A DNA stretch of 64,000 bases from Roseivirga thermotolerans (lineage in GTDB: Bacteria > Bacteroidota > Bacteroidia > Cytophagales > Cyclobacteriaceae): NCBI RefSeq assembly GCF_014653175.1, contig NZ_BNAG01000003.1:682001-746000 (forward strand). The letters run 5' to 3'. The notes under the pieces were generated by a model. That model was not told the origin of the DNA. It searched no databases and saw nothing but the letters and a program-made list of their open reading frames with translations. Below, piece after piece: positions 50,728 to 62,100 of this stretch. The position numbers were made by a program, and so were the translations under genes. Position 1 is the first letter of the stretch. Each line of letters opens with the position of its first letter.

Positions 50728-51666
50728 TTACCAGTCTGGTTTGTCAGAGTCTTTCTTCTGGGTGGCCTTTCTCTTCTTTTGTTGCACATACTGGATCTCA
50801 TTGTTTTTCATGGCCTCCAGTATCATTTGAGCCTTTTCTAGCGGAATGTTCATTTCCTTCAGCTTCTCCATGAGCTTTTGCATAGGGTCATCTTTTTGCT
50901 CACCCTCTTTTTGCTCTTGTTGTTCTTGCTGTTGTTTATCGTTTTTTTGCTGCTCCTGCTCTTGCTGCTCTTTGTTCTGATCGTTCTTTTGCTCCTGATC
51001 TTGTTTTTTTTGCTGATCTTTTTGGTCTTTCTGATCCTTGTTCTGTTGATCTTGCTTTTGCTCTTGTTGCTGATCTTTCTTTTGGTCTTGCTGTTGCTGC
51101 TCTTGTTGTTGTCTTAGCAGTTTTTTCAGCAGCTCATAATTGTATCGGGCTTGTTCGTTAGAAGGGTTTTTGAGCAAGGCATTCTTAAAATTGCTGAGGG
51201 CAGAGTTCATAAAAGACTCTTTTTCATCGGGCGATTGCTCACTCATTTTGTAGGCAATTATACCCAGCTGATTGTGGGCCGAAGAAGCAAGAACTGGCTC
51301 TGCTGCACCGGCAACGGTTTTGTAATTTTTATCGGCAATATCAAAATAGCGAAGGTCTCCGCTAATGGCGCTTAACTGAGCACTGTCTTGCACCTGGGTT
51401 TTGCCGCTGCTTATGTCGCTCAATAAGCCCATGTTGTCTCCCCCATATGACAGTAAATAGGCTGCATGGGCTAGGTTTAAACGGGCCTTATAGTCTTCTA
51501 CTTCTAAACTATCGAGCAGAGATACATAGGCCGTAACAGCTTCGGCATACTGGCCTGTTTCGTAGGCTTCTTTGGCCGTACGCTTAAGCTTGTTCGATCG
51601 GGCAATTTTATTTACCGGATCTGTAACCCCTCCCAGTATAATCAATAAGCTGATAATGTATTTCAT
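50728..51666 (-). CDS. batC: BatC-like TPR protein with Gln/Lys-rich low-complexity region
   Basis: 312 residues. The signal-like start (MKYIISLLIILGGVTDPVN) leads TPR helices (about 30-185: AYETGQYAEAVTAYVSLLD, FKNALLKNPSNEQARYNYELL). A stretch of about 80 residues (about 190-270) is made almost only of Q, K, D, E and N, and a helical MQKLMEKLKEMNIPLEKAQ end follows. This is the BatC layout of Bacteroides aerotolerance operons. It overlaps batB by 4 bases. The low-complexity DNA also produces meaningless Leu-rich frames on the other strand. Confidence 0.85.
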   Translation of the reverse strand: MKYIISLLIILGGVTDPVNKIARSNKLKRTAKEAYETGQYAEAVTAYVSLLDSLEVEDYKARLNLAHAAYLLSYGGDNMGLLSDISSGKTQVQDSAQLSAISGDLRYFDIADKNYKTVAGAAEPVLASSAHNQLGIIAYKMSEQSPDEKESFMNSALSNFKNALLKNPSNEQARYNYELLKKLLRQQQEQQQQDQKKDQQQEQKQDQQNKDQKDQKDQQKKQDQEQKNDQNKEQQEQEQQKNDKQQQEQQEQKEGEQKDDPMQKLMEKLKEMNIPLEKAQMILEAMKNNEIQYVQQKKRKATQKKDSDKPDW

Positions 51667-52631
51667 ATCCTTAATGTCTTTCTTCTAATGAGCGCATCCA
51701 GAGCCAAAAGCACCAGCGCACCCAGCACGAAATAATAAAACTTATTGGCCGAGGCATCGATCATTCGGGCATCGCGCAATTCGCCCTCTACTTCATTTAT
51801 AGCCCTAATGAGTCGAGCTACATCGTTTTGATTTTCATTGATTTCGAAGTATTTGCCACCGGTATCAACGGCCAGTTTTCTTAACGATTTGGAGTTGAGC
51901 TTTGTTACTACCTCCTGCCCATTTCTGTCTCGTTTAAAACCATTGGCCTGCCTTATTTTAGAACCTGTTTCTGTTCCCACACCAAGAGCAAACAACTGAA
52001 TGCCACTTTTTACAATCTCTTTGGCAGCCTCATCAGTTTCATCGCCAAAATCTTCTCCATCGCTAATCAATAAAACAATCTTTGCCTTTTGTTGGGTAAT
52101 GGGCGATTCAGAATCTTCGAGCTTGTCTAAAGCCATTCGTAGGGGAGCACCAAAATCGGTTCCTGCGTTGGGCACCAGGCTGGTGTTGAGAGTGCTGATG
52201 AATAAACTAAGCGCACTCTGGTCGTAGGTAAGAGGACATTGTACAAAGGCTTCGGAGCTAAAAATAATCAGGCCAATGCGGTCAGAACTAAAGGCGTCTA
52301 CAATGTTTTTAAGTTCAAATTTAATTTTCTCCAGTCGGGTAGGTTGAATGTCGAAGGCGTTCATAGATTGCGATAGGTCTACCGCTATATATATATCCTT
52401 ACCCTCCGACTTCACCTCTTTAGTGGTTTCTCCAAAAGAAGGGCCCAGCAAGGCTATAATAAGCAAGGCCATGGCCATGCTACGGAGCAAAATCTTGAAA
52501 ACGAGCGGTCGAAAGGAGGTTTGTAGCCTCCTGGCCACCATGAACATTCGAATAATATATGCGGAGTAGGCAATTATGAATATGCCTATAAATACCCACT
52601 CTGTTGTTCCAATACTTTTAAACCAGGTCAT
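51663..52631 (-). CDS. batB: BatB-like von Willebrand factor A membrane protein
   Basis: 322 residues. Helix near 12-30 and a second near 44-62, VWA domain about 80-280 with the MIDAS motif DLSQSMNAFD (DxSxS), LLISDGEDFGDE, and a C-terminal helix (about 297-315). It binds metal and probably protein partners in the periplasm or cytoplasm next to the inner membrane. BatA, MoxR and the DUF58 protein that usually precede it are absent: the next gene upstream points the other way. A -7 box lies at 52644. Confidence 0.9.
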   Translation of the reverse strand: MTWFKSIGTTEWVFIGIFIIAYSAYIIRMFMVARRLQTSFRPLVFKILLRSMAMALLIIALLGPSFGETTKEVKSEGKDIYIAVDLSQSMNAFDIQPTRLEKIKFELKNIVDAFSSDRIGLIIFSSEAFVQCPLTYDQSALSLFISTLNTSLVPNAGTDFGAPLRMALDKLEDSESPITQQKAKIVLLISDGEDFGDETDEAAKEIVKSGIQLFALGVGTETGSKIRQANGFKRDRNGQEVVTKLNSKSLRKLAVDTGGKYFEINENQNDVARLIRAINEVEGELRDARMIDASANKFYYFVLGALVLLALDALIRRKTLRI

Positions 52632-52651: not shown

Positions 52652-52739
52652 TAGAAGTATACCTTTATATATAAGCCACTCATCAAGTGTGGCCATTTAG
52701 TGGGTGTTAAAGATTGTTAAGGCTTGCTAAATCGACAAC

Positions 52740-52754
52740 TAGGTGTTACACCTA
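52740..52754. promoter_or_regulatory. Palindromic operator candidate TAGGTGTTACACCTA
   Basis: A 15-base palindrome (7 bp arms around one base) whose twin, 14 of 15 bases identical, lies at 56534-56548. It sits 50 bases before the -7 box at 52804 and about 95 bases from the batB -7 box. The size and symmetry fit a LuxR/NarL-type response regulator site. Confidence 0.6.
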
Positions 52755-52803
52755 TTTTTTAAATCTAAGGAAATATACCTACTAAAAGGCTTTGGGGAGG
52801 CTC

Positions 52804-52811
52804 TACATTTG
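52804..52811 (+). promoter_or_regulatory. -7 box TACATTTG of the small secreted protein gene
   Basis: Exact TAnnTTTG match 18 bases before the ATG at 52830, with no good -33 element, as expected for an activator-dependent promoter. Confidence 0.55.
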
Positions 52812-52829
52812 AAACATAAGTAAAGCATT

Positions 52830-53360
52830 ATGAAAACGCTCAAAACCTTTTTCGCCTTCTTTGTTTCGCTACCCTTATTGTATTTGCCGGTAGAGCTGGC
52901 ACTGGGTGAAAAATCGGCTGATGCGAATGCGCTAACTAGTGAGCAGGTGGCCTTCGACTCCCATAGCTTCTCGGCAGGAGAGTGGATGACCAGCAATTTG
53001 GCACTGGTTAATGAGCAGGCGAAAGTTTCTAAAGAGCACTTTACTTATGAAGAACTTGAAACCGTAAAGCCCGAAGGTTGGGAACTTCCCACAATGGAGC
53101 AGGCTGTTAGTTTACTAAAAAGCATGGGATTCAACCAGAGTTCAGGATATATTCCTTCTGACTATTATAAGGTCAACTGGCAGTATTCAGGCTATGTAGA
53201 CCCAATTTTGGGCAAAGTAAATGAAGGCGAGAAGCTTCTGTTGTGGGTTAAAGACAATGGTCAGCACAACTACATTTCCATTAGCAAAGACAATTTAGAA
53301 TTCACCCCTGGAAAAACACTGGCACATGCCAGACTTTCGGCCAGGCTGGTAAGAAATTAG
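52830..53360 (+). CDS. Small secreted protein with lectin-like (Fib_succ/DUF1566-like) features
   Basis: 176 residues with a signal peptide (MKTLKTFFAFFVSLPLLYLP then VELALG). The mature part has GWELPTMEQAVSLLKSMGF, a spaced W/Y set (YYKVNWQYSGY, LLLWVKD) and the end HARLSARLVRN. The order W-x-LPT ... W ... AR-x-VR-x resembles the Fib_succ_major/DUF1566 proteins of C-type-lectin-like fold, a tentative reading. It has its own promoter with an upstream palindrome shared with the 3' side of the neighbouring response regulator gene, and a terminator at 53390. Confidence 0.75.
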   Translation: MKTLKTFFAFFVSLPLLYLPVELALGEKSADANALTSEQVAFDSHSFSAGEWMTSNLALVNEQAKVSKEHFTYEELETVKPEGWELPTMEQAVSLLKSMGFNQSSGYIPSDYYKVNWQYSGYVDPILGKVNEGEKLLLWVKDNGQHNYISISKDNLEFTPGKTLAHARLSARLVRN

Positions 53361-53389
53361 CATATACATTTAGTGTTTTGGTTAAAAGG

Positions 53390-53420
53390 GGCTTCTCAGA
53401 TGGAGAAGCCTTCTTTGTTT
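53390..53420 (+). terminator. Rho-independent terminator
   Basis: GGCTTCTC pairs with GAGAAGCC around AGATG-like five bases (53390-53410), followed by TTCTTTGTTT. It separates the secreted-protein gene from the kinase gene. Confidence 0.8.
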
Positions 53421-53502
53421 ATATAGCTTAATCTTTACTCGATTTAGCACCGATTATTCTTGGAATTGCATAAATTTAATCCTATTCCTACCGAGTGATC
53501 TC

Positions 53503-55872
53503 ATGGCTCAATCCAAGATTGACGATTTTATTTTAGGCGTAGTGAATGCAACCAATTCGCTTATAGCTTCCAAACTGGAAGAAGGGATTCAGATTGCCCT
53601 GGATACCCTGTGCGATCATCTCGACATTAGTTCATCTTTTATTTACAAAAACCATAGAAACGAGAACGGAGAGCTCCTAAGCTCCATTAAGTATTTTTCG
53701 AGCAAAACCGTGATTCCTGAGCGAGTTGCTCGCAATCAGGATGTTCCTCTTTATCGCATGGAGAAACTAAGCAAGGAATTGGCAGCCGGCAGACCTTACA
53801 TGTTGGTTTACTCTGACAGCGACAGCGAACTAAGGGCGCATATGGGGTTAGACCATACGAAACTCGTGGCTTTCTTTCCCATAATAGTAGATGACGATTT
53901 TTGGGGAGCCATAGGCTTTGCTGACTTTAGCAAAGAAAGAAAACTGTCAGAGCCGGAAAAGCAATTACTCATGACTTTGGCCAATGCAATAGCCGGTTCT
54001 ATCAGGCGAGAAAGGCTCGAGTCCAATCTGGAACAGTTGGTGCAGCAACGTACAGCAGAGCTTCAGGACCACAAACTGCGGTTTCAGTTGGCGCTGGAAA
54101 GTACACAAAATGGTTTTTGGGACTGGCTGCCACAAGAAAACAAGATTTTCTGGTCTAAAAACATGTACGACAACCTGGGCTACGAACCGGGCGATCTTCC
54201 CGATTTGATTGAAGGCTTCTATGACCTCGTTCATCCGCACGACAGGGCAGAGGCCAGGCGAAGATTCAATAACTATCTCCAAAATAAAGTGCCCTACGAA
54301 ATGGAATTCAGGTTGAAGAAAAAGGATGGTAGTTACCGATGGTTTCTTTCAACTTGCAAAGCTGTTTGGGACGAAGAAGGCAAACCCATTCGTGTGGTGG
54401 GAAGCCATGCCGATATTCATACCCGCAAGGTAAGTACCGAGCTGTTGGCTCGACAGGAAGAAAAGTTCAGAACAGTTATTCGCACCGACCCCAACCCTTT
54501 ATTTCTCGTTAACAAGCGAGGTAAAATAGTGCTGCACAGTAAAAGGTCGTGCGAGGTGTTTGGCTATTCGGATGAGGAACTCAACGGGCTTAATGTACTG
54601 CGATTGTTGCCTCCCGACAAACGAAGCAAGTACAAGCAACTACTCAACGACTTTTTAACCAAACCCCGAACTCAGGTACTTGATTCTACTGCTGAGATAA
54701 AGGCCAGAAAGAAAAACGGCCGACTATTTTGGATAGAAATGGGCTTGAGCCCGGTGAGTATTGACGGTGAAACCATGGTGTTGGCTGTGTTGACCGATGT
54801 AACCCGAAAACGAGAGGCTGAGCTAAAGCTCAAAGAAAGTTACCGGCAAATGAATAACCTCATAAATAACTTGCCGGGGGTGGTATATCGCTGCCGAAAC
54901 GATGAGTCATGGACCATGGACTATATCAGCCCGGCTTGTGAACAAATTACAGGATACAGACAGGAGGAGTTTTATGGCGATCCGGCCATTACAACTTTTG
55001 GTAACTTGATTATACCAGATGACAGGGATGAGGTTTGGGAGCATGTGCAGCGTTCGGTGAACGATCAAAAGCCTTTTCGGATGACATACCGAATAAAGGA
55101 TAAGCAGGGCAGAATAAAGTGGATATGGGAACAGGGGGTAGGTGTGTTTGAAAACGATATGCTGGTGTGGCTGGAAGGCTGCCTTTTCGATGTGACCCCT
55201 ATTATTAGAAATCAGGAGAAAGTTCAGCAGGCTATATACAGTACTGAAGACAAAGAACGCAGAAGGATTGCTTCAGATTTGCACGATGGTGTACAACAAA
55301 CCCTGGGGGTTAGCTATATGAATCTTAAGCATCTGGATGAGGAGGTCGCAAAGTTTTCGGAGGCACTACAAAAGAGATACTACAAAAGCCTTAAGTATTT
55401 AGAGCAGGGTATTAAAGAAAGTCGCAATATTGCCCATCAGCTATTGCCTAAAGATGTAGAGGAACTGGGGCTTGTAAAAGCCCTGGAACAATTAATTTCC
55501 GATACCATTAATGGCAACGGCACCGAGGTTGAATATTATACCAATATTACAGCAAGACTACCGGCCGAGGTAGAGCTAGGGTTGTATCGGGTAGCCCAGG
55601 AAACCCTAAATAATATAATGAAGCATGCCAAAGCCAGTAAGATTAGTGTGCAGCTCATTAAAACGGCCGATGAAAACGTGCAAATGATGATAGAGGACAA
55701 CGGTGTGGGTTTTGATAAAAACAAACTAGATATTTATAAAGAAGGATATGGCCTGACAAGCATGAAAAACCGGGTATGGTCAATGTCTGGTAGGCTATCA
55801 GTAGATAGCAACCCGGGAAAGGGTACTTGTTTGGTGGCCATTATTCCAGCAAAGCTTAAAGTATATGAATAA
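53503..55872 (+). CDS. GAF-PAS sensor histidine kinase (HisKA_3 type), cytoplasmic
   Basis: 789 residues with no membrane helix. N-terminal GAF-like domain (about 5-170; LVAFFPIIVDDDFWGAIGFAD), coiled linker, PAS domains at about 190-310 (FQLALESTQNGFWDWLP), 320-440 (RTDPNPLFLVNKRGKIVL) and 450-570 (NNLPGVVYRCRNDE). The HisKA_3 domain carries His594 (ASDLHDGVQQTLG), and the ATPase domain has ETLNNIMKHAKA, EDNGVGF and GYGLTSMKNR. It should phosphorylate the LuxR regulator encoded next, whose start overlaps its stop by 8 bases. Confidence 0.95.
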   Translation: MAQSKIDDFILGVVNATNSLIASKLEEGIQIALDTLCDHLDISSSFIYKNHRNENGELLSSIKYFSSKTVIPERVARNQDVPLYRMEKLSKELAAGRPYMLVYSDSDSELRAHMGLDHTKLVAFFPIIVDDDFWGAIGFADFSKERKLSEPEKQLLMTLANAIAGSIRRERLESNLEQLVQQRTAELQDHKLRFQLALESTQNGFWDWLPQENKIFWSKNMYDNLGYEPGDLPDLIEGFYDLVHPHDRAEARRRFNNYLQNKVPYEMEFRLKKKDGSYRWFLSTCKAVWDEEGKPIRVVGSHADIHTRKVSTELLARQEEKFRTVIRTDPNPLFLVNKRGKIVLHSKRSCEVFGYSDEELNGLNVLRLLPPDKRSKYKQLLNDFLTKPRTQVLDSTAEIKARKKNGRLFWIEMGLSPVSIDGETMVLAVLTDVTRKREAELKLKESYRQMNNLINNLPGVVYRCRNDESWTMDYISPACEQITGYRQEEFYGDPAITTFGNLIIPDDRDEVWEHVQRSVNDQKPFRMTYRIKDKQGRIKWIWEQGVGVFENDMLVWLEGCLFDVTPIIRNQEKVQQAIYSTEDKERRRIASDLHDGVQQTLGVSYMNLKHLDEEVAKFSEALQKRYYKSLKYLEQGIKESRNIAHQLLPKDVEELGLVKALEQLISDTINGNGTEVEYYTNITARLPAEVELGLYRVAQETLNNIMKHAKASKISVQLIKTADENVQMMIEDNGVGFDKNKLDIYKEGYGLTSMKNRVWSMSGRLSVDSNPGKGTCLVAIIPAKLKVYE

Positions 55873-56521
55873 GTCAATTCGCCTTTTTGTGGCCGATGAT
55901 CACCCTATGATTTTAGAAGGATTGGTCTCCTTTTTAAGCCAAATACCAGAGTTTAAAATTTGTGGCACAGCCTCCAATGGTCTGTTGGCCTACGAACAAC
56001 TTAAAAGTCTGGAGGTAGACATACTGCTCACCGATATTCAAATGCCCCAGCTCAATGGTATTGAACTGGTTGAACGGTTGATTGCCGAAAATAGGGATGT
56101 GAAGGTAATAGTACTCACCATGTTCAATGATGTGATCTTCGTAAAACGCCTCTTGCAATTGGGGGTTATGGGCTATGTATTAAAAGATGTTGGGAAAAAT
56201 GAGTTAAGGCAGGCCATTGAAACCGTATATAAGGGAGGGCAGTTTTACTCCTATGAAATTACTGAGATAATGATGAGCAAGCTCAGGGGAAATGGAGTAG
56301 GTTTTAGCCTAAAAACTGACCTTACCGATAGAGAGAAAGAAATTTTGCAGCTCATTTTAGAACAAAAGAGCAATAGAGAAATTGCCGATCAGCTATTTAT
56401 TAGTGCCCGAACGGTGGAGGCTCATAAACGAAACATGTTAGAGAAAACCGGTAGTAAAAATCTGGCCGGGCTCATCATTTACGCAATCGAAAACGAGATT
56501 TTCAAGAAAAACAATTCTTAG
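55865..56521 (+). CDS. NarL/LuxR-family response regulator
   Basis: 218 residues. Receiver with VADDH, phosphoacceptor Asp57 (LLTDIQMPQLNG) and Lys near 107 (LKDVGKNEL). The HTH at about 150-215 has LTDREKEILQLILEQKSNREIA and FISARTVEAHKRNM. It is the output partner of the GAF-PAS kinase. Two candidate binding palindromes lie just past its stop (56534 and 56558), and one lies 3.1 kb upstream before the secreted-protein gene, which suggests it controls them; that is inference. Confidence 0.95.
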   Translation: MNKSIRLFVADDHPMILEGLVSFLSQIPEFKICGTASNGLLAYEQLKSLEVDILLTDIQMPQLNGIELVERLIAENRDVKVIVLTMFNDVIFVKRLLQLGVMGYVLKDVGKNELRQAIETVYKGGQFYSYEITEIMMSKLRGNGVGFSLKTDLTDREKEILQLILEQKSNREIADQLFISARTVEAHKRNMLEKTGSKNLAGLIIYAIENEIFKKNNS

Positions 56522-56533
56522 TAAAAGCAAATC

Positions 56534-56572
56534 TAGGTGTTTCACCTATAGAAGAGTTAGGTGTTTCTCAGA
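56534..56572. promoter_or_regulatory. Palindromic operator candidates TAGGTGTTTCACCTA and TAGGTGTTTCTC
   Basis: The first (56534-56548) matches the 52740 palindrome at 14 of 15 bases. The second (56558-56572) keeps one half-site and lies 24 bases on, start to start. They begin 12 bases after the response regulator stop and precede a -7-like box at 56595. Confidence 0.55.
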
Positions 56573-56602
56573 TGTTTGTGAAAAGTAAGTCCCCTTACTT
56601 TG

Positions 56603-56706
56603 TAAATGTGATCAAGGGAGGGCGCAAAGAGGCCAATAACCAAAGATATGATCAGACTGAATTTTACTCTGCGCTCCCTGAGATTACATTTTAGAAATCT
56701 CCTTTT
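56603..56706 (+). ncRNA. Candidate small RNA downstream of the operator sites
   Basis: TTACTTTG at 56595-56602 could serve as a -7 box. The following bases form AGGGAGGGCGCAAAGAG/CTCTGCGCTCCCT (56615-56679, with bulges), then GAGATT/AATCTC (56680-56701) followed by CTTTTC. The layout is of a roughly 100-base structured RNA, but nothing identifies a family and the ends are guesses. Confidence 0.3.
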
Positions 56707-56889
56707 CACCTAGATTGACTGTAGCTAAGGCGGACTCTATGTCTTAAAAAAAGAGCATTGTCAAATGCGGTTTTCCAAAGACAAACAATAACAAACATAA
56801 AGACATCAGTTGGGTACTTTGTGTGAAGTTGGTTCATCGATCCGACACGAAAGATGATTATTTAAGTAGAGTTGATAGTTAAAGTGCCG

Positions 56890-56964
56890 CAGAGGTTGTC
56901 TTAAGAGTGTTATCTCTTTCTTCCGGAAATGAGCTGCACGCTTAAGGCAGCCTCTGTTTTTTTT
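56890..56964 (+). terminator. Long-stem terminator without a gene in front
   Basis: CAGAGGTTGTCTTAAG (56890-56905) pairs along all 16 bases, with two G-U pairs, with 56941-56956, followed by eight T. The nearest coding stop on this strand is 370 bases upstream, so it may end a separate non-coding transcript. Confidence 0.7.
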
Positions 56965-57330: not shown

Positions 57331-58833
57331 ATGAACAAAAATGAGTTGATGAATAAAAGAGAAGTGGATAATAATGTAAATGAGTCATTACAGGTATACA
57401 AAGACCTTTTCGATAAAATCGATTTGGGTATTGCCAATTTTTACGTTCGAAGAACTGGCAAATCCATAAAATCAGTGTGCTTTCATGTGATCAACCCCAG
57501 CTTTGAAGAACTTCTGCAGGTGGAGTCAGCAACAATACTTGGTAAGTGGTTTCCTGAGAAAAAAAGAAATGCCTACGACTCTCCTTTTCATTGGCTCATT
57601 AGTCGGCTTGGTGAACCACGAGCAGAGAAGTCAAAGTTTACCCATTTCTTTAATTCAGTAAACCGCTGGTGTACCGTAGAAATAATTCCCCTGCAAACAG
57701 ACTACTACGGACTCATACTAACCGATGAAACGGAAAAAGTAAATATGGATACCTCCATTCAGCATCAGTTGGAGGTACTGAAGAGAGTTGGAGAACACCT
57801 GCATGTGGGTGGTTTTGAATATGACCTTTTAAGCCATACCATGTACTGGTCTGACGAAATGTTTACGATCCATGAGTTAGACATAGGCGAGGCACCAGAC
57901 CTGGAGCAGACACTAAGCTTCTATACCTCTGCCGATCGCCCCAAACTTAGAGAAGCTCTTAAAGCCGGTCTGGTAGATGGTACTCCTTTCGATTTGGAAC
58001 TGGAGATAATAACTGCCAATGGCAACAAAAAACAAGTGCGTATTTTTGCACAGCCCATATTCAGGCACAATCGGTTGGTGAAACTTGGTGGAGGAATATT
58101 AGACATTACTGTGTTGTACAAAAATCAGCACGAGCTCAATCAGCTCAACCGTGAGCTGGAGAGATCCAACAAAGAACTGGAGGAGTTCGCTTACGTGGCA
58201 TCGCACGATTTACAGGAACCCATCAGAACCATTTCGGCCTTCACCGAACTTTTAGTAACCCGCCTGGGAACCAATCTGGACGATAAATCTCAAATGTTTG
58301 TGGAGTATATTTTGGGAGGAACCAGCAAGATAAAACGCATGATCAATGACTTGTTGGCTTACTCCAGAGTAAATACTTCCAAGAATCCTTCGGTTGTATT
58401 TAGCACTCAAACGGCTCTGGAAAATGTGTTGGAGCTATTGCGCAAAAAAATATATGAACACAATGCTACCGTAACGTACTCGTCCATGCCGGAAATATCC
58501 TTTCAGCAGAGCCTTTTTGAGAGGTTGCTCATGAACCTGATAGACAATGGGTTGAAGTACAATAAAAGTAGTAAACCCAAAATTCATATTGAAGCTTTAG
58601 AATCGTCTGGGTTTGTCACTTTTTCCGTAAAAGATAATGGTATTGGTATCCCGGAAATTTACAAAAACGATGTGTTTGTAATCTTTAAGCGATTCGCGGG
58701 CGAAGAAGTGCAGGGTTCAGGCATGGGGCTGGCTATAGCTCATCGCATAATTTCTAAGGGAGGTGGAGATATATGGTATGAATCTACTGAAGGAGAAGGC
58801 ACCACATTCTTCTTTAAGCTACCCAAAAAATAG
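57331..58833 (+). CDS. PAS sensor histidine kinase (HisKA type), cytoplasmic
   Basis: 500 residues with no membrane helix. Two PAS-like sensor domains at about 20-135 (DLFDKIDLGIANFYV) and 150-270 (VGEHLHVGGFEYDLLSHTMYW), and a short coiled linker (ELNQLNRELERSNKELEEFA). The HisKA domain has phosphoacceptor His292 (VASHDLQEPIRT). The ATPase has RLLMNLIDNGLKYN, VKDNGIGIPE, FKRFAGEEVQGSGMGLAIA. It resembles light- or redox-type orphan kinases that signal to stand-alone receivers; the giant receiver protein that follows is a natural partner. Confidence 0.95.
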   Translation: MNKNELMNKREVDNNVNESLQVYKDLFDKIDLGIANFYVRRTGKSIKSVCFHVINPSFEELLQVESATILGKWFPEKKRNAYDSPFHWLISRLGEPRAEKSKFTHFFNSVNRWCTVEIIPLQTDYYGLILTDETEKVNMDTSIQHQLEVLKRVGEHLHVGGFEYDLLSHTMYWSDEMFTIHELDIGEAPDLEQTLSFYTSADRPKLREALKAGLVDGTPFDLELEIITANGNKKQVRIFAQPIFRHNRLVKLGGGILDITVLYKNQHELNQLNRELERSNKELEEFAYVASHDLQEPIRTISAFTELLVTRLGTNLDDKSQMFVEYILGGTSKIKRMINDLLAYSRVNTSKNPSVVFSTQTALENVLELLRKKIYEHNATVTYSSMPEISFQQSLFERLLMNLIDNGLKYNKSSKPKIHIEALESSGFVTFSVKDNGIGIPEIYKNDVFVIFKRFAGEEVQGSGMGLAIAHRIISKGGGDIWYESTEGEGTTFFFKLPKK

Positions 58834-59199
58834 TTCTGAATGTTTTTTTGACCATTTTATAGATTTTTCAGTGGGCTGGCTTGTCTTTAGGAGTGTTTTA
58901 AAAACTACGTGAATCACCTACATCCATTACACAGAGAATCACATACAGGAATTCGAATTTAATCTAAGTAATTGCACACTTTCCATAACTAGGCAGATCT
59001 GGTAATTCAGATGGCCGGTTAGCGATGAGACTCAACCTCGGAATCGATTTGGCGTAAGCAATTGCATTTTATAGAGAAAATATCGCTGGTAGTTATTTTT
59101 TATCGGGCATTAAACCCTTAAATTATACCTATCTGAGCTAAGGGTTGAGTTTTTAGAGCTTAGGATTAAACGTTTCGAGGGAAAATACAGATTCCTGCT
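58834..59199 (+). other. 366-bp gene-free region before the giant receiver protein
   Basis: No coding ORF. It holds two near-identical 12-mers, TAAGTAATTGCA (58965-58976) and TAAGCAATTGCA (59055-59066), and a copy of GAAAATATCGCT (59076-59087) also found before the upstream kinase. No clean -33/-7 promoter or terminator is visible. Confidence 0.5.
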
Positions 59200-62100
59200 A
59201 TGACCAAAATACTCCACATAGAAGATAATCATACCGATGCCATTCTTTTACAAGAATATGTATCGATGTTCGATCATGACAAGGAGTTTAGAATAGAACA
59301 TGTGGTTGACTTTTGGGTGGGTATGGAGTGGCTCGAAGAGGAAACCTTTCATGTGGTGTTTCTAGACCTGGGTTTGCCGGGTATCAAAGGGTTAGAAGGG
59401 GTAGAGCGAATTGTTAATAATTTTCCTGACATATGCCTTATTGTTTTAAGTGGTAATCAGAGCCTCGATTTGGCCAAAGAAGCCATACAATTGGGTGCGC
59501 AAGATTACCTTTCAAAGCACGAGATGTCGCCTACCCAGATCGAGAAGTCCCTCATATTCTCTCTGGAACGCATAGAACTCAGAAGAAAGGTAACCACACA
59601 AAGCGCTAAGCTCGAAAAACTTTCCGCAGCTGTAGAACAGTCTGCCAATATTATCCTCATTACCAATATTGACGGAAACATAGAATATGTTAACGACAGG
59701 TTTGTGGAGGTAACCGGCTACACCAAAAGAGAGGTAATAGGGAAAAAACCAAGCCTTTTAAAGTCGGGTCGTCAAGACGAGGAGGTATTTAAACAACTTT
59801 GGGATACTATTATAGAAGGAGATACCTGGTCCGGTAATTTCATAAACAAACGCAAAAATGGTACCCTACTCTACGAAAAGGCCATCATAAGCCCAATAAA
59901 AGACGAAAACGGCCGAATAGTTAATTTTCTGGCAGTTAAGGAAGACATTACAGAATTGAAGGCCATGGAAGAGCGTCTCGACTTCACGCTTGAGGCCGCC
60001 AATCTGGGTACATGGGAGTGGAACCTGAAAACCAACGAAATGCTCTACAACTTTGAGTACGCCAAAATGCTTGGCTTCGAAGTGTCTGAGTTAGACAAAT
60101 CGCTGGGCTTTTCAAGAAGCAGAATTCACCCGGAAGACTTTCCTGAATCTTTGGCCAAACTAGAGCAGCATGTAAAAGGAGAGACAGATAAGTACGAGGC
60201 CGTATACCGTATTCAGCACAAAGAAGGGCACTACATCTGGATTTATGATACGGGTAAAATAATGGAGTACGATAGCCAGCGCAACCCTATTAAAGTGCTG
60301 GGCGTGCATGTTGATATTACGGCCCTCAAAGAGCAAGAAGAAAAAATAAGATTTGAGAAAATACAGCTTCAGAAAACCCAGAAGTTGGGTCGTATTGGTA
60401 GCTGGTATTTCGATTTAGAGCAGGAAGAATTTACTTACGTTTCTCCTAAGTGCCGAGCCATACTGGGCTTTCCGGCAGAGCAGAAAATTGATCGGGAAAC
60501 TATTCTGGATGCTATATATGGAGAAGATAGAGAGCTTTTTATTACTGACTTCAAAAAAATGTGCGATGGTCAGCACATTGAGTTTTTACACAGGGTAGAA
60601 AAGAATAAACAAGTACGATGGGTAAAAGTGACTGGCGACCCCGAGTTTAACGCCAAGGGTAGGTTGCTAGGCGTATTGGGTTTAGTTCAAGACATTACGG
60701 AGGAAAAAGAGCGACAAATTGCCCTGGAGCAAAGCGAACTCAAATTCAGAACCATATTTGACAATGCCACTGTGGGTATTGTATACCAGGATTCGGAAGG
60801 GCAAATTCTAGACTCCAATAAAAAGGCTGCGGAAATTTTAGGCTTAGACCGCGAGGTGCTCGACACCAAGGGAGCGAAAGATCCTGATTGGTATTTTATC
60901 GATGAAGACCACAATCAGCTGGATTGGACAGCCATGCCTTCGGCCAAGGTGGTCGAATCTAAAAAGCCGGTATTGGGCGATATTGTGGGGATTTTCAATC
61001 CTAGAAAGTCAGCTATTGTCTGGATCCTCATAGATTCATTTCCGCTTATAGATCAGGCTACCAACGAGCTTAAAACCTGTACCATATTTACCGATATTAC
61101 CGAGCGCAGAAGGCATCAGCTGGAAATTAAAGATCGGCAGGCCAAGCTTCAGGCTGCTCAAAAAATTGCCAACTTTGGCCACTGGACTTACAGCTATAAA
61201 ACCGATAACTACACCTGGTCTGACTCGGCCTATGAGTTATTCCATTTAGACAAAAAGATTCAACCCTCCAGAGAGGTGTTTTTTAAGTTGGTTCACCCAG
61301 ACGACCGAAAGCGCCTTAGGGACCTCATTAAACAATCGAGAAAAAGCCATAAAAACACTCATGTAGAGTTTAAGGCTTTACTGCCGAACGGAGAGGTGCG
61401 CTATTTTGAAGATTCCTGGGAAACTACTTACGACCCAGAAGGTAACCCTGATTCTGTTTTGGGGGTGTATCACGACATTACCGAGCGAAAAATTGCCGAG
61501 AATGAGCTCCACGAAGTGAAAGAAAAGCTATTGTCCATTCTCGACTCGTTCGATGATATAGTCATTATAATAGACAGAAATCTTCGCTACAAAGAGGTTT
61601 TTCCTGGTGGAGACCCCGGTGATTTGCTGGCCGTACCAGCCAAAATGATTGGCAAAAAAATAGCAGACTTTATGCCCGATGATGTGAGTCAGCTGGTAAA
61701 AGAAGCCTTTGTAAGAATTAAGGAGTCTTCCCAAACCGAATCCATTACCTATAGCATACAGTTTGGAACAAAAACCAAATGGTTCGATGCCAAACTTTCC
61801 GCTCTGCACGACCAAAAAGGCATGTTCAACGGAGTAACCATGTTGGTGAGAAACGTAACAGAGCAGAAGTTGAATGAACTTGCCCTGCAGGAGAGTGAGA
61901 GCAAATTTAGAATGCAGTCTGAATTTTTACCACACATTCTATGGACAGCCGATTCGCAAGGAAAAACGAATTACATTAATGAAGCCGGCCGACACTTCTA
62001 TGGAGATAACATAAAGTACTACCATCAGGGAAGAAGAAACGGGCTTCATAAAGACGATCGGGAGCAGGCCCGCCTTAAATGGGAAGAAGCACTGGCCAAC

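Follow-up and report, generated by a model that had tools for sequence, protein, structure and literature searches.

Conserved tandem sites suggest a private regulon of a GAF/PAS kinase and a NarL-type regulator in Roseivirga thermotolerans

A 64,000-nt stretch of the genome (4.21 Mb) of the marine bacterium Roseivirga thermotolerans (contig 3, 682001-746000), called the window here and used for all coordinates, was found to encode a GAF/PAS sensor histidine kinase (53503..55872, + strand) and a NarL-type response regulator (55865..56521, +) with a composite promoter on either side of the gene pair. Since relatives kept the same site arrangement, it was concluded that a small gene set of its own is very probably activated by this pair: the regulator would bind tandem sites and, together with the kinase, activate sec, coding for a small secreted-type protein, and dsp, an orphan gene. 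A private regulon of the pair was the reading best supported by the sequence, and its sites may also serve paralogs whose recognition helix is the same. In the window strain, sec was intact, and dsp was decayed behind a still recognizable promoter.

The pair and its two composite promoters

The 789-aa kinase contained GAF, PAS repeats, HisKA_3 (PF07730, E 2e-10) and HATPase_c (PF02518, E 1.1e-14) domains, its sensor parts consisting, according to Pfam, of GAF and PAS domains only. The kinase gene overlapped by 8 bp with that of the 218-aa regulator, which combined a Response_reg receiver (PF00072, E 2.1e-26) with a GerE helix-turn-helix domain (PF00196, E 9.7e-19) bearing the recognition helix RTVEAHKRN.

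The composite promoter consisted of a 15-bp site 1, a site 2 starting 24-27 bp later, a gap of 22 bp and a −7 box of the TAnnTTTG type. Upstream of sec (52830..53360, +), site 1 was TAGGTGTTACACCTA (52740..52754, +), followed by a weak site 2, AAGGAAATATACCTA (52767..52781, +), and, 22 bp past it, by the box TACATTTG (52804..52811, +), whose end lay 18 bp before the ATG. Downstream of the regulator gene, site 1 was TAGGTGTTTCACCTA (56534..56548, +), site 2 was its degenerate copy TAGGTGTTTCTCAGA (56558..56572, +), and the box TTACTTTG (56595..56602, +) again lay 22 bp past site 2. The first-pass annotation, made from the letters of the window, had already described both palindromes as well as a third, degenerate copy, which proved to be site 2 of the second promoter. 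It had also placed −7-like boxes about 55 bases from the palindrome centers, and the measured distances were 57 (52804) and 54 bases (56595). The weak site at 52767-52781, the 22-bp spacing common to both promoters and the decayed gene behind the second promoter had been overlooked.

Promoters of the Bacteroidetes primary sigma factor (sigma-ABfr) are described, in PMC7366714, by a −7 element TAnnTTTG and a −33 element TTTG. The −7 element, or a sequence one base off it, was found in the promoters studied here as well; TACATTTG agreed with it fully and TTACTTTG departed at one base. Unlike in the sigma-ABfr promoters of that text, the −33 TTTG was absent from 14 of 15 promoters, and site 2 of the regulator occupied its place. 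The test looked for TTTG at a spacer of 17-21 bp, limits chosen by the analyst, and detected it in neither window promoter, in line with the earlier remark that both lack a good −33 element.

The distance from site 2 to the box was 22 bp in all seven intact dsp promoters and in all seven sec promoters tested, and 23 bp in two promoters of the B-type regulators discussed below. In class II activation, the activator site adjoins or covers the upstream core element and keeps a fixed spacing to the −7/−10 box, and the promoters had this arrangement. As site 2 overlies the place of a −33 element, the regulator might instead cover that region and block the polymerase. This was judged quite improbable: the TTTG at −33 spacing occurred in only one of the 15 promoters, which suits activator-dependent promoters, and the near-constant 22 bp would suit contact with the polymerase better than steric blocking.

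Conservation of the pair, of dsp and of its promoter

Homologs were sought in 19 genomes for the regulator, in 59 for the kinase and in 118 for dsp. Of the 18 further genomes of the genus that were examined, 7 contained close orthologs of the pair (G001, G008, G010, G011, G013, G014 and G016), with identities of 42-58% for the kinase, over the aligned pieces, and 56-61% for the regulator. The dsp gene, of about 85 codons (80-91 in relatives), was found in 7 of its 118 genomes, which were the same seven relatives.

The comparison of the locus among related genomes that had been proposed with the first-pass annotation bore out a link between the promoter and the pair. The composite promoter followed the orthologous regulator gene in six of eight genomes, the window included. 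In G013, G016, G014, G001 and G011, the stop codon of the regulator was followed by two tandem 15-bp sites, a TAnnTTTG box and dsp; in G014 and G001, site 1 overlapped that stop codon. G008 and G010 had no such promoter after the regulator, and a genus-wide pattern search located the composite promoter elsewhere, directly before the dsp homolog. Hence, the promoter goes with the target gene rather than with that of the regulator. The 70-bp layout from site 1 to the box end was identical in all seven intact dsp promoters, namely site 1, site 2 at +25, 22 bp and TAnnTTTG.

Conservation also bears on the possibility that the palindromes act as terminators of transcription or form hairpins in RNA. 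A simple scan did flag each palindrome as terminator-like, one being followed by TTTTTT. However, the arms paired at only 3-6 of 6 positions in relatives, while the right half of the site stayed ACCTA or GCCTA across 15 promoters. Moreover, the elements kept a nearly constant spacing to the −7 boxes downstream of them, including those of the relocated dsp genes, the gene upstream of 52740 was on the other strand, and there was no Rfam match at the gathering threshold (0 matches). The intrinsic terminator reading was therefore rejected as highly improbable.

A scan of 84,980 species genomes with one conserved dsp peptide pattern returned 59 stretches, six of which encoded a relative, five in Roseivirga (R. 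spongicola among them) and one in a Cytophagia bacterium. The protein was predicted to fold as a helical hairpin (mean pLDDT 76.8); no match to this fold was obtained in PDB at E ≤ 0.001, so the fold gave no function. In G001 (L051) and G016 (L046), the next long open reading frame (ORF) past dsp encoded a multi-span membrane protein, which we take to be AI-2E-type transporter-like from its looks.

The dsp relic of the window strain

The DNA behind the second promoter, from 56608 to about 56890 (56608..56890, +, the end being approximate), could be aligned with dsp from G013 and G016 at the DNA level, and the block CTCCTTTTCACCT was unbroken. Indels broke the frame, and no dsp protein match was found in the R. 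thermotolerans genome, where the stretch was single-copy. The second promoter thus faces a dead gene. Between this regulator and the next kinase gene, no long ORF was present.

A strong hairpin with a run of T (56889..56964, +; hairpin 56889-56957) may terminate the transcript of the relic. The segment 56880-56966 was folded at −38.3 kcal/mol (z −5.8), with a 17-bp stem and a U run, and none of 200 shuffles was as good. The 3' arm of the hairpin had no alignment in the matching stretch of G013 and G016. It was also considered that a closed module of one genus is involved, in which the pair would drive dsp and dsp, found only together with the pair, would probably act back on it; here the promoter of the dead dsp would drive a noncoding RNA of about 360 nt ending at the hairpin. 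Such a scheme seems distinctly unlikely.

The sec gene and its homologs

The sec gene encodes a 176-aa protein with a signal-like N-terminus, as judged by eye. Homologs adjoined the orthologous kinase gene in G013 and, as a contig-end fragment, in G016, where the full copy and the promoter used in the analysis came from a second contig (C327), beside a gene with a VWA domain. In G004, G006, G015 and G012, a homolog was found near the paralogous system of the P type, and G007 had one as well.

The dsp-derived model was applied to held-out sec upstream regions of the window strain (G000), G013, G016, G004, G006, G015 and G007, the copy of G012 being left out; gaps of only 22 and 23 were allowed and 500 shuffles were made of each region. 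The scores of the composite promoters were reached by 0, 2, 0, 0, 0, 1 and 0 shuffles, respectively, and the gap was 22 in all seven. The sec promoters of G007, with the box 118 bp from the ATG, and of G013, with a low score (1.6), were considered weaker. The promoter that had been assumed between the first palindrome and the small secreted protein gene was recovered as a composite promoter, recurring before sec homologs.

The window protein matched Fib_succ_major (PF09603) at E 0.16 and 12.7 bits, below the cut-off of 33.9, and was not assigned to the family. Five of six aligned sec members matched it at E ≤ 0.01 (best 1.8e-9), although the window protein stays below the Pfam cut-off, and only a distant kinship was accepted. 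The predicted fold of sec had a mean pLDDT of 66.3.

Specificity of the composite arrangement

The palindrome was examined alone and as part of the promoter. The window contained the word TAGGTGTTWCACCTA two times, whereas 100 shuffles gave no occurrence. The form TAGGTGNNNCACCTA (12-base core, 3-base spacer) was exact at three places in the genome, two of them at this locus, 3.8 kb apart, and the third before a BLUF gene. With up to two mismatches, 86 places were counted genome-wide, against 89 in the control, i.e., at the background level; the window had 4, where shuffles averaged 1.75 and 15 of 100 reached 4. In the whole-genome motif scan suggested earlier, the loose palindrome was thus rejected as a genome-wide signal. 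The lone palindrome therefore proves little, and the composite arrangement carries the signal.

A ranking model was built from the dsp promoters of six genomes other than that of the window and run over both strands of the window and over 200 Markov random windows. The place at 56534 ranked first (42.7) and that at 52740 second (13.2), while the maximum of a random window averaged 5.6 and was 15.9 at the highest, far below the first score. With its true 27-bp site spacing, the place at 52740 scored 25.0, a value that none of 500 shuffled versions of its region reached.

Further, the gap between site 2 and the box was left free (5-45) in 17 loci. Among 53 tandem-site candidates, which include reverse-strand readings of the same sites and exclude the L047 dsp promoter, boxes were found ten times at gap 22, three times at 23, once at 21 and five times at the 38 other gaps together. 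Three of the loci (L127, L130 and L131) came from a distance-limited pattern search and the rest were chosen by homology or around the sites of the window and of its genome. If the two palindromes were alike merely by chance, as the background level of loose matches (86 against 89) might suggest, the same geometry would not be expected in seven other genomes; the gap histogram also speaks strongly against chance, and its probability was regarded as practically negligible.

A sequence model of 14 promoters was scanned over 19 genomes. In the R. thermotolerans genome, only the two window places fell below E 0.01 (1.3e-8 and 4.4e-7), otherwise only their reverse strands. Both window promoters were in the training set and only a part of the first-look candidates was scored, so the point of the scan is that nothing else appeared. 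When 28 loci with NarL-type regulators of other kinds were scanned (120,671 bases), the composite model gave one weak match (13.7 bits, in L179).

Several results weigh against a private regulon as proposed. The box at 56595 is an imperfect one, and the 52740 promoter, when held to a site spacing of 24-26 bp, scored 13.2, inside the range of the random windows (highest 15.9). Site 1 in relatives was often a poor palindrome, with 3-6 of 6 arm pairs. The scan of the R. thermotolerans genome scored only 150 of 1190 first-look candidates, and matches at E ≤ 1, mainly weak ones, turned up in every one of the 19 genomes. A simple model gave stray matches above a score of 8 in four of the 28 control loci (9.1 in L179, 15.9 in L180, 10.0 in L181 and 12.5 in L190). 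Two genus-wide pattern searches yielded 15 and 14 places, with 7 in the control each time, meaning that some single matches are chance; the matches in L088 and L092, inside coding sequence, were taken as such. Some of the promoters were already known when the patterns and models were drawn up. The upstream regions of the kinase, HK2, BLUF and collagen-like genes gave no support within 260 bp. Finally, the R. thermotolerans genome holds both a paralog with the same type of recognition helix and a sister-clade regulator (L180) with a nearly identical one (KTVDAHKRN), so the binder could be another regulator or several.

The regulator clade and the neighboring hybrid kinase system

A tree of 40 regulators was computed; 8 of the 28 control loci, having no readable helix, were absent from it. 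The eight A-type, two B-type and nine P-type regulators each fell, by type, on one side of a branch and formed a joint clade (support 92/86), which grouped with three sister regulators (L180, L179 and L080; 99/99). The recognition helix read RTV[ED]AHKRN in all 19 regulators of the A, B and P types. The helices of the sister group were close (RTVEAHKRN, KTVDAHKRN and RTVDAHRRN), and the other control helices that could be read differed, e.g., HTVDTHRKN.

Like the window pair, the P- and B-type kinase/NarL pairs of the genus combine the same regulator clade and site type with a similar spacing and nearby outputs, which are sec homologs or an ORF of 117-120 aa, receiver-like by eye. They differ by other, larger sensor kinases and partly different targets. 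The B-type regulators of G013 and G016 were followed by a composite promoter before the 117-120-aa ORF, and in these two promoters the gap was 23 rather than 22. In G018, a full composite arrangement was found upstream of a P-type kinase gene.

The P-type pair of R. thermotolerans starts with a hybrid kinase gene of 2036 codons at 59200, which extends past the window end; its NarL-type partner lies at window coordinate ~65303, just outside, and is 48% identical to the 55865 regulator. This paralog also has the helix RTVEAHKRN, and thus the 55865 regulator may not be alone in using the motif. It was therefore asked whether the sites are bound mainly by the ~65303 paralog, or by both regulators, in a shared regulon. 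In addition to the helix, this is favored by G004, G006, G015 and G007, which had the P type and no A type among the regulator matches listed and carried similar tandem sites before sec homologs, by further weak composite-model matches (~13-19 bits) at P-type loci, and by a related site, TACGTGAATCACCTA (58906..58920, +), upstream of the hybrid kinase gene. On the other hand, G001, G008, G010, G011 and G014 had an A regulator and no P or B type among the matches listed (part of the regulator helices of these genomes being read) and kept complete dsp promoters, and no composite-model match at E ≤ 1 was obtained in the locus around the paralog itself (L124). A shared regulon was thus considered unlikely, and a private one of the 55865 regulator was preferred. 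For the latter, as first put forward in the first-pass annotation, the conserved sites beside orthologs and targets speak in favor; the regulator would bind these sites, perhaps not exclusively given the same-helix paralog, and the second target is broken in this strain.

The site at 58906 is a weak candidate. A site-2-like copy was present at 58931-58945 and a good −7 box at 22-23 bp was absent; the composite score of 3.7 was below the mean maximum of the random windows and not significant. The hybrid kinase gene found no support as a target (341 of 500 shuffles scored as well), with the tested 260 bp stopping short of this site.

Other candidate targets and neighboring features

The third exact palindrome lay on contig 4 of the R. 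thermotolerans genome at 45404 (L003), 91 bases before the gene of a BLUF blue-light receptor (PF04940, E 2.2e-30). Neither a tandem site nor a −7 box accompanied it at the usual distance, and since 160 of 500 shuffles scored as well, the gene was not counted as a regulon member. Neither autoregulation of the window kinase gene (161 of 500 shuffles) nor control of the PAS histidine kinase gene downstream of the regulator (57331-58833; 110 of 500) was supported.

On contig 2 of the same genome, outside the window, a one-mismatch site with a 25/22 layout was found at 681618 (L007, L126) before a bactofilin gene and a collagen-like gene, both named by eye. Its composite score was 10.8, reached by none of 500 shuffles, and there was no match to the model R1. 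A full composite promoter preceded a related collagen-like gene beside bactofilin in G016, the sole R1 match among 30 bactofilin loci. With this one locus in 30, and a score of 10.8 without an R1 match, the bactofilin/collagen-like operon stays a candidate.

The upstream neighbor of the 52740 site is a divergent VWA-domain gene (51663-52631, −), whose product is presumably BatA-like. The element GTTAAAGATTGTTAA (52706-52720), upstream of this gene, was unchanged in the matching region of L047-L053 and L055 and was reversed in L054 and L134. It is a strongly conserved element separate from the regulator sites. A terminator-like stem was located between sec and the kinase gene (53388..53412, +); this region held 6 such stems against a shuffle mean of 4.1.

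Proposed mechanism and comparison with known systems

It was proposed that the GAF/PAS kinase would phosphorylate the NarL-type regulator, which would then bind the two tandem 15-bp sites of each promoter. If the first base of TAnnTTTG is assumed to be at about −11, site 2 would be centered ~30 bp upstream of that base, at about −41, and site 1 ~25 bp further up, at about −66. The bound regulator would activate the RNA polymerase where the −7 box is present and the −33 element is absent, probably replacing the −33 contact. The dedicated outputs within the clade would be sec, small, secreted-type and distantly akin to Fib_succ_major, and dsp, an orphan of about 85 aa with a predicted helical hairpin. 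We infer the phosphorylation, the binding, the activation rather than repression and the exact start sites from the arrangement of the DNA.

NarL of Escherichia coli recognizes the heptamer TACYYMT, and its partner NarX has a nitrate-sensor architecture. The sites described here are of the TAGGTGnnnCACCTA type, unlike those of NarL, the kinase has GAF and PAS domains and is not a NarX-type nitrate sensor, and the class of sigma factor differs from that of E. coli as well. The arrangement nevertheless resembles class II activation and the NarL targets of the E. coli ogt promoter. There, according to PMC7419079, NarL targets are centered at −44.5, for the nearer one, and −77.5, 33 bp apart. As with NarX/NarL at ogt, a two-component kinase and a NarL-type regulator are combined with two targets upstream of one promoter, which here would lie at about −41 and −66, 24-27 bp apart. 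Among the open-license PMC papers searched, none was listed that reports a binding site of a NarL/LuxR-type regulator of Bacteroidetes or two-component work in Roseivirga, and none of six palindrome words occurred in those papers.

The locus supplies named targets and a site that can be tested, set at a nearly constant distance from the −7 box; with these, the regulator clade can be matched to its outputs in other genomes that carry it. It also ties an uncharacterized small family, dsp, to one signaling pair and provides an example of an output gene that was lost while its promoter was retained.

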